Below are positions 20,861 through 39,391 of a stretch of DNA of 64,000 nt, in pieces. The notes below the pieces were generated by a model. The model saw only the letters and a list, made by a program, of their open reading frames with translations. It made no database searches and was not told where the DNA came from. This stretch comes from Adhaeretor mobilis (GTDB taxonomy: Bacteria > Planctomycetota > Planctomycetia > Pirellulales > Lacipirellulaceae): contig NZ_CP036263.1 in assembly GCF_007741515.1 (NCBI RefSeq), positions 3,955,178-4,019,177 on the forward strand, given 5' to 3'. A program made the position numbers and the translations under genes. Within the stretch, counting starts at the first letter, position 1. Each line of letters starts with the position of its first letter.

Positions 20861-20869
<9 letters not shown>
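20843..20869 (+). other. 5' arm of the 23S rRNA processing stem
   Basis: This 27-base segment is complementary, with one mismatch, to 23777-23803 at the other end of the 23S gene; 20853-20869 pairs perfectly. Such stems bring 23S ends together and are cut by RNase III. Confidence 0.8.
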
Positions 20870-23776
<2,907 letters not shown>

Positions 23777-23789
<13 letters not shown>

Positions 23790-23803: not shown

Positions 23804-23900
23804 AAACTTTGTTTGAGGACGAAGGATAAGAAGGTCCACTCTTGCAAACAAAACACCAAAACGTTAGGTGGCATCGGTCGACAGGTCGATGTCATCTTTT

Positions 23901-24009
23901 CTGGTGACCATATGTACGTGGAGACACCTGTTCCCATTCCGAACACAGTAGTTAAGCGCGTCCAGCCGATGATAGTGAGAGCACTCGCGAAAGTAGGTAT
24001 CGCCAGGTT
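23901..24009 (+). rRNA. 5S ribosomal RNA
   Basis: About 109 bases. CTGGTGACCATA at the 5' end pairs with TATCGCCAGG at the 3' end to form helix I. GAGACACCTGTTCCCATTCC followed by GAACACAGTAGTTAAGC is the conserved loop A/helix III region. It lies about 110 bases after 23S and directly before a strong terminator. Confidence 0.95.
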
Positions 24010-37779: not shown

Positions 37780-38421
37780 CTACCTCTTCACGAACTCAGC
37801 CCGATAAACAGGCTCGTCATTGAGCCGCGTGCGTCGCTCGAAGTGCGTGCGATAGTCGAGATCGTGCTCTGCTGGTTTTTCGTTAACATCAACCGGCCCC
37901 TCCAGCGCTATCTTCTCCGCGATGAGTTCAAGTGTGGCGTCGAAATACCTCTGAACATCGGTCCAAAAGTGTAAACGCCCGTCGGGCAGCAGCGTGCGTA
38001 CAATATCGTTGAGAAACGCCTCGTTGAGTATGCGACGTTTGCGATGACGAGTTTTCCACCACGGATCGGGGAAGTAAACGTGCACCGCCGCCAGGGACGC
38101 ACTGGGGATGCACTCGCGAAACATGCGCAAGCCATCGCCATACACCGCCATGCCGTTCGTCCGACTCCCGCGAGCCAGCCGGGCGGCAGCGTGTAGGGCA
38201 TATTTTTGCCTCACCTCGACACCTAGGAAATTGTGCTCGGGGCACACCCCTGAGGCCGTCTGCAAGAAGAGCCCCTTGCCGCTGCCCATCTCTACTTCTA
38301 GGGGCTGCTCTTTGGCGAATAACTCAGCAGGGTTCCACGGTGCTGGCAGCTCCTCCACGGTACGGAAGTGCCCAGAGAGGTCGATCTTGGGATCAAGTTT
38401 TTTGAGCGCACGGCGACCCAT
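37780..38421 (-). CDS. trmB: tRNA (guanine-N7-)-methyltransferase
   Basis: 213 residues. PLEVEMGSGKGLFL is the SAM-binding motif I of TrmB, FLGVEVRQKYALHAAARLA follows, and VHVYFPDPWWKTRHRKRRI is the diagnostic FPDPWPKxRHxKRR motif. It methylates G46 in the variable loop of tRNAs. Length is typical. Convergent with purF, separated by an inverted repeat. Confidence 0.95.
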   Translation of the reverse strand: MGRRALKKLDPKIDLSGHFRTVEELPAPWNPAELFAKEQPLEVEMGSGKGLFLQTASGVCPEHNFLGVEVRQKYALHAAARLARGSRTNGMAVYGDGLRMFRECIPSASLAAVHVYFPDPWWKTRHRKRRILNEAFLNDIVRTLLPDGRLHFWTDVQRYFDATLELIAEKIALEGPVDVNEKPAEHDLDYRTHFERRTRLNDEPVYRAEFVKR

Positions 38422-38529: not shown

Positions 38530-39027
38530 CTAGAGACTATCAACTGGCAGCGGGATTCCGCTCAGCTCACCGTCGCATTTGAGATCCGTACCCACGAAAC
38601 ACTGGAAGCGACAAGTGATCATGCGACCGCGACGCAACTTCAGTTTCTCGCACATCACGAGCAGGCGATCCCCTGGACGGACAAGTCCGCGAAACCGCAC
38701 CTTATCCAATCCGCCGAAGCCCACCATCACCGCGCCTAGCAAGTCGTGCCGCTGCGTGTGAAAGGAGCAAACTTGCGCCGCCGCTTCGCACATTACTACG
38801 CCGGGCATCAGAGGCATTCCGGGCATATGCCCAGCGACCCAAAATTCATTCGGCGTTAAATCGCGATAGCCGGCACAGATGCCGCGCTCCGGGTCATCGA
38901 CCACGATGGCCGAAAGCTGCTCCATGTCGCCGCGTTGCGGATTGTGCGAGCGAATCTCGTCGATATCAGCAACGATGGTTTCGTAGTCGATCTCAGCAGG
39001 ATCGAGAATTGCGTCACGAACTGGCAC
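38530..39027 (-). CDS. FabZ-like 3-hydroxyacyl-ACP dehydratase (hotdog fold)
   Basis: About 165 residues. GHMPGMPLMPGVVMCEAAAQV matches the hotdog signature GHFPGxPxxPGVLxxEAxAQ of FabZ, with the active-site His and Glu. The DKVRFRGLVRPGDRL strand follows as usual. FabZ dehydrates beta-hydroxyacyl-ACP in fatty acid synthesis; the N-terminal 40 residues and stand-alone position suggest a paralogue rather than the main FabZ. Start uncertain: GTG at 39027 (VPVRDAILDP) is used; the frame is open to a TTG at 39048. It lies 52 bases downstream of the bL37-like gene on the same strand. Confidence 0.85.
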   Translation of the reverse strand: MPVRDAILDPAEIDYETIVADIDEIRSHNPQRGDMEQLSAIVVDDPERGICAGYRDLTPNEFWVAGHMPGMPLMPGVVMCEAAAQVCSFHTQRHDLLGAVMVGFGGLDKVRFRGLVRPGDRLLVMCEKLKLRRGRMITCRFQCFVGTDLKCDGELSGIPLPVDSL

Positions 39028-39079
39028 TACCGAGAGAACTCCCAACAACTAAAACCGATTCTGCGGGGAAGGCAACGGC

Positions 39080-39178
39080 TCAGGTCTTCACCTTCTGGCG
39101 ACGACTCTTACGTGGGCGGCTGCAAGCTGGGCGCTTGCCGTGGTTCGCTTTTTTGACTTTTCGTCCTGGCTTAGCCAT
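39080..39178 (-). CDS. bL37-like small ribosomal protein, 32 residues
   Basis: ATG at 39178 to TGA at 39080-39082, preceded by a strong Shine-Dalgarno (AGAGGAGAG, GGAG eight bases before ATG). The product MAKPGRKVKK ANHGKRPACS... is extremely basic and shares the AK-x-GRK start and the KANHGKRP core with the 24-residue actinobacterial large-subunit protein bL37, as I recall it, plus a basic C-terminal extension (RPRKSRRQKVKT). Such a protein would lie buried in 23S rRNA. It is easily missed because of its length. The alternative, a random basic ORF, is unlikely given the ribosome-binding site and the core match. Confidence 0.75.
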   Translation of the reverse strand: MAKPGRKVKKANHGKRPACSRPRKSRRQKVKT

Positions 39179-39391
39179 GGGACACTCTCCTCTGGATATG
39201 GACTTAGTACTGAATTGGTCGCGTAAGTGTACCAGTTGAGACGTTCTGGGGAAAGCGGCGGTGAAGCTGGGTAGAGCCCCCCATTCATTTCAGCCCGACA
39301 GCCATCTCAGCGGCGGAGGAATCGGCCCGACCTCATAACCGACGCTGATTTCTCGGTCGCCGGCCCTTGGCTGAAATGACAAGACTTGCCT

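Follow-up and report, generated by a model that had tools for sequence, protein, structure and literature searches.

The 64,000-nucleotide stretch of the Adhaeretor mobilis genome analysed here (hereafter the window) carries on its minus strand a 32-codon open reading frame with an ATG start and a TGA stop, whose very basic product contains the motif KANHGKRP followed by a basic C-terminal extension (Table 1). At this length the gene is easily overlooked. An initial annotation had already proposed the short ORF, the core motif and a strong Shine-Dalgarno sequence, leaving the strand unstated, and all three features were confirmed: the core occupies residues 10-17, and the sequence 5' of the ATG, ccagAGGAGagtgtcccATG, contains an AGGAG separated from the start codon by 8 nt. 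GA-rich, Shine-Dalgarno-like stretches were likewise found ahead of the start of many homologues. Two genes follow on the same strand, encoding a FabA/FabZ-like dehydratase and a TrmB-like tRNA methyltransferase. The window also holds a 23S and a 5S rRNA gene, and no 16S match was found within it; split rRNA operons are known in planctomycetes.

Table 1. Features of the bL37 locus and of the rRNA genes in the window (positions counted from the first letter of the window).
Feature	Position	Strand	Basis or remark
23S rRNA gene	20862..23786	+	
5S rRNA gene, 109 nt, arm IV shortened	23900..24008	+	Rfam alignment
trmB-like tRNA methyltransferase gene, second downstream of bL37	37780..38421	-	PF02390, E 1.9e-34
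FabA/FabZ-like dehydratase gene, next downstream of bL37	38530..39048 (start codon approximate)	-	PF07977, E 5.5e-22
bL37 gene, planctomycete long form, 32 aa MAKPGRKVKKANHGKRPACSRPRKSRRQKVKT	39080..39178 (stop included)	-	NF047429, 68.2 bits against a cut-off of 40; purifying selection
C-terminal basic extension codons, residues 18-32	39083..39127	-	Mostly absent from actinobacterial bL37; helix predicted at residues 20-29
Core codons, K10-A-N-H-G-K-R-P17	39128..39151	-	Conserved in planctomycetes, actinobacteria and Tetrahymena mL102 (KANHGARP)
Shine-Dalgarno AGGAG	39187..39191	-	Ends 8 nt before the ATG; read from the sequence

When compared with NCBIfam (release 20), the protein matched the equivalog model NF047429 (ribo_Plancto_bL37, '50S ribosomal protein bL37') over residues 1-32 of 32, with an E-value of 5.5e-19 and a score above the curated cut-off (Table 1). 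Its family is therefore one already catalogued, and because this equivalog exists, planctomycete bL37 is not new to databases. The model of actinobacterial bL37, NF047428, reached 19.8 bits over residues 5-17 only, below its cut-off of 30 bits, and a six-frame search of the entire 6 Mb genome with it gave this same ORF as its best match (E 0.013). A Pfam search of the protein returned no family above cut-off. When the window was scanned in all six frames, a profile of planctomycete bL37 scored 59.4 bits at the ORF and 7.1 bits at the next best site, a result that, unlike the matches to the two NCBIfam models, is not an independent test because the window protein is one of the profile's 30 training sequences; in five Markov-resampled windows the top scores were 6.3 to 11.7 bits.

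We then quantified the conservation of the gene in related genomes and across the phylum. It exceeded the NF047429 cut-off in 53 of 59 relatives, and three of the six assemblies without it have a completeness of 58-68%. Among 393 genomes drawn evenly from the phylum, 86 exceeded the cut-off and 118 matched at E<=0.001, while a profile built from 30 planctomycete members (A1) recorded the gene in 120 genomes (~30%), its scores dropping from 39.5 bits to 31.8 and 22.7 for the last two matches. All listed members of three family groups within the class (f22, f23 and f24) are without bL37, as are most sampled genomes of the phylum outside the class. Most of the divergent planctomycete proteins (L057-L083) score below the NF047429 cut-off, which is too strict for divergent lineages in other families of the phylum. 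The family is single-copy in nearly all genomes; one fragmented assembly (G002) has two different bL37 genes (L096 and L005, on contigs C132 and C117), owing to contamination or to a paralogue. No phage-borne copies were found in IMG/VR.

The order bL37, FabA/FabZ-like, TrmB-like recurs in a minority of the 60 loci compared, the FabA/FabZ-like gene being present in up to 15 and the TrmB-like gene in up to 13, and the remaining loci have other neighbours. At divergent planctomycete loci (L058, L072 and similar ones) the neighbour resembles, by eye, a tRNA-guanine transglycosylase instead of FabZ or TrmB.

Comparison of 24 bL37 sequences of the same family (276 pairs) gave a pN of 0.056 and a pS of 0.629, corresponding to a Jukes-Cantor (JC)-corrected omega of ~0.04, and the variable columns at the three codon positions numbered 9, 6 and 31 of 32. 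Identity was 0.82 within the ORF as against ~0.3 (near-random, ungapped) in the 60 bases on either side. These data demonstrate that the ORF is under strong purifying selection at the protein level. The initial annotation had named a lack of conservation in relatives, or a near-neutral ratio of synonymous to nonsynonymous change, as findings that would speak against the gene, and neither was observed. A chance ORF is ruled out by the codon-position pattern, the conservation and the resampled windows.

The relation of this protein to actinobacterial bL37 was assessed by profile and by single sequence. An hhalign comparison of 30 planctomycete with 18 actinobacterial sequences gave a probability of 97.0% (E 1.2e-10, as printed for one pair), the alignment covering the N-terminus and the core with a five-residue gap. 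Single actinobacterial sequences score weakly against the planctomycete profile, the common stretch being the 8 core residues and their basic flanks; in 14 of 16 such sequences 0-2 of 2000 same-composition shuffles reached the real score, and in the other two 9 and 12 did. Actinobacterial bL37 (NF047428; PDB 5O60, 7KGB, 8CRX and others), which reads MAKRGRKKRDRKHSKANHGKRPNS or similar, resembles the planctomycete protein in being very short and basic, in its MAK/MSK basic N-terminus and in its KANHGKRP core, which is near-invariant in both groups. The two differ, however, in the arrangement around this core: actinobacterial bL37 has ~14-15 residues before it and usually 1-6 after it, whereas the planctomycete form has 9 and ~15, respectively, and the helix that is N-terminal in mycobacterial bL37 (PMC5876184) is predicted to be C-terminal in the planctomycete form. 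The best AlphaFold model, of modest confidence (mean pLDDT 86, pTM 0.42), places a helix at residues 20-29 and none N-terminally; the other four of the five models were worse (mean pLDDT ~67-70). Judged by these alignments, homology is limited to KANHGKRP and the basic N-terminus.

Thus, the proposal that a relative of bL37 with a basic C-terminal extension exists beyond the Actinomycetota is supported by NF047429, hhalign, the shuffles, conservation and selection, and the HMM comparison that had been suggested as a check bore it out, with NF047428 alone staying below its cut-off. The description of this relative as a 'longer form' holds for the extension after the core, and does not hold in the sense of a mere added tail, since fewer residues precede the core and the predicted helix follows rather than precedes it. 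In the actinobacterial sample the bL37 model matched 41 of 197 genomes, and the planctomycete-type model gave 0 of 149 above cut-off. Two variants in this sample (L155 and L158) end right after the core (GRSNHGRRPA and GRANHGRRPA) and fall below the NF047428 cut-off, one of them being a second bL37 copy in its genome (G608). In published structural work, bL37 was stated to exist only in actinobacteria (M. smegmatis; PMC5876184) or to be found only in mycobacterial ribosomes (Borrelia; PMC10618245), and our literature search found no paper linking bL37 with planctomycetes.

Searching all PDB sequences with a planctomycete-only profile, we obtained as the best match not actinobacterial bL37, which came second (E 0.0018-0.0038), but the Tetrahymena mitoribosomal protein mL102 (6Z1P chain AQ, residues 62-88, RNARPPKKANHGARPCSSVMRRLKKKY, E 4.1e-7). 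These two, both large-subunit proteins, were the only kinds of solved protein below E 0.01, and for mL102 0 of 2000 shuffles reached the real score. The KANHGARP core and basic C-terminal segment of Tetrahymena mL102 match the planctomycete core and extension. The Tetrahymena segment in turn reached Toxoplasma mL184/mL102 at E 0.0073 and 0.11; this counterpart (9I05 chain AH, mL102; 9G6K chain UI, mL184) has ARYPKKGNKGCRPVCRAMRKIRKR, with a degraded core (KKGNKGCRP), and matches the window protein weakly (E 0.75). Both mitochondrial proteins are larger and have other parts (109 aa in Tetrahymena, 396 aa in Toxoplasma). A profile that includes the mitochondrial segments necessarily recovers them and so adds no independent evidence. 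The actinobacterial bL37 profile did not reach mL102, and the planctomycete form is therefore the bridge between the two. The place described for mL102, between the central protuberance and the L7/L12 stalk and reaching the A-site tRNA (PMC7326499), is in broadly the same part of the large subunit as the bL37 cavity, by description rather than by coordinates. Our literature search found no paper linking bL37 with mL102.

The profile surveys covered planctomycetes, one actinobacterial sample and one alphaproteobacterial sample. A collection-wide scan for the KANHGKRP pattern returned 6 planctomycete matches, 3 actinobacterial ones and a single match in a Hyphomonadaceae record (L124), which has no ATG start and is probably due to chance; as the scan was restricted mostly to codons ending in A/T so as to keep the number of matches down, it misses G+C-rich coding, and so other phyla are not excluded by it. 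An alphaproteobacterial source of the mitochondrial form was considered and rejected: 386 genomes of the class of L124, which we take to be the Alphaproteobacteria, yielded 4 weak matches (18.7-22.1 bits), and those inspected were unlike a bL37 gene.

We next examined the surroundings of the proposed binding site. No match to uL30 (PF00327) was obtained in any of 40 planctomycete genomes, whether or not they carry bL37, as against 13 of 14 control genomes, and actinobacterial bL37, in contrast, coexists with uL30; losses of uL30 have occurred several times in bacteria (PMC3353972). When the 5S rRNA of the window was aligned to the Rfam consensus, 9 of the 11 deleted positions fell in the arm IV region, and between fixed anchors arm IV measures 8-10 nt in 18 planctomycete genomes. 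This is 5-7 nt shorter than in E. coli, which has 15 nt between the same anchors. Planctomycete 5S rRNAs (that of the window and L183-L200) are ~108-110 nt long, with a short arm IV in the presence or absence of bL37, and we accordingly rejected the idea that arm length predicts the presence of bL37 in this phylum. Since the 5S arm is just as short in planctomycetes that lack bL37, and all those tested are without uL30, neither feature predicts bL37 within the phylum. Loop D of arm IV lies near H39 and H89, and for this reason we equate the arm IV tip with the '5S tip' named in the bL37 papers. In these papers, bL37 is placed beneath the 5S tip, at H39/H40, the H41/H42 joint, H72 and H89 (PMC5876184; PMC10085706). 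Other occupants of this site have been described: in Borrelia it is taken by an N-terminal extension of uL30 (PMC10618245), a substitute in the cleft that differs from the planctomycete case, where no uL30 was found, and in Coxiella a compact 5S is linked with the peptide CLaSP in the bL37 cleft (PMC13392368), a functional substitute for which no substantial sequence identity to bL37 was reported.

Taken together, these results make it highly likely that the product of the gene is the long form of bL37 typical of planctomycetes, a peptide with a structural role in the 50S subunit; its membership in the ribosome, its site, its bracing role and the path of its extension are what we infer. By homology with the actinobacterial protein, the KANHGKRP core would bind in the rRNA cavity delimited by H39-H42, H72, H89 and the 5S tip, beside the peptidyl transferase centre, where bL37 would brace H89 against 5S and domain II. 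The 15-residue basic, probably helical extension probably reaches into space that the truncated 5S arm IV and the missing uL30 leave freer in planctomycetes, a space-filling proposal that leaves the short 5S arm and missing uL30 of bL37-less planctomycetes unexplained.

The same data bear on three other explanations, of which the least improbable, though still unlikely, is that the protein is ribosomal and sits at a 50S site other than that of actinobacterial bL37, the common core reflecting similar rRNA contacts. The differently placed basic arms, the predicted helix on the other side of the core and the differing surroundings at the 5S tip and uL30 would all fit such a site; the core is nevertheless near-invariant in both groups, and mL102, which matches the planctomycete form, has been described in the same general large-subunit region. 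Were the KANHGKRP motif a product of convergence, the protein might instead be a small basic nucleic-acid-binding or antimicrobial-like peptide acting outside the ribosome. C. acnes bL37 was antimicrobial in a disc assay (PMC10085706), alignments between short basic sequences arise readily, and chance KANHGKRP stretches do occur, as in L124. We nonetheless regard convergence as very improbable: few shuffled basic sequences score as high as the real ones, the solved matches below E 0.01 are all large-subunit ribosomal proteins, and a very low dN/dS with near-universal presence in relatives is easier to reconcile with a core component than with a peptide weapon.

The position of the ORF just upstream of the fabZ-like and trmB genes on the same strand could also point to a leader peptide or a non-coding regulatory stretch ahead of them. 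This we consider the most far-fetched of the three, as homologues retain the protein in other gene contexts, the constraint acts on amino acids rather than nucleotides with unconserved flanks, and neither an Rfam family nor a terminator-like site was found.

Beyond the reading of the gene as a planctomycete bL37, we propose tentatively, at slightly less than even confidence, that bL37 is a family common to two bacterial phyla and mitochondria, in which alveolate mL102 is a homologue of the planctomycete long form and occupies the same cavity. The C-terminal extension would go with a reduction of the 5S tip (by truncation in planctomycetes, and by the complete absence of 5S in Tetrahymena mitochondria) and the short actinobacterial form with the presence of uL30. 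The mL102 match goes beyond the databases and papers that we searched, as does the association with a short 5S arm and the lack of uL30.

At the sequence level, the statement in structural papers that bL37 is confined to actinobacteria is wrong, and the curated planctomycete model that already exists misses divergent members of the family. Should the link to mL102 prove correct, bacteria would have relatives of a protein that was named as new in the mitoribosomes of ciliates and apicomplexans, and several lineages would fill the cavity next to the peptidyl transferase centre in different ways, with bL37, a uL30 extension, CLaSP or mL102.
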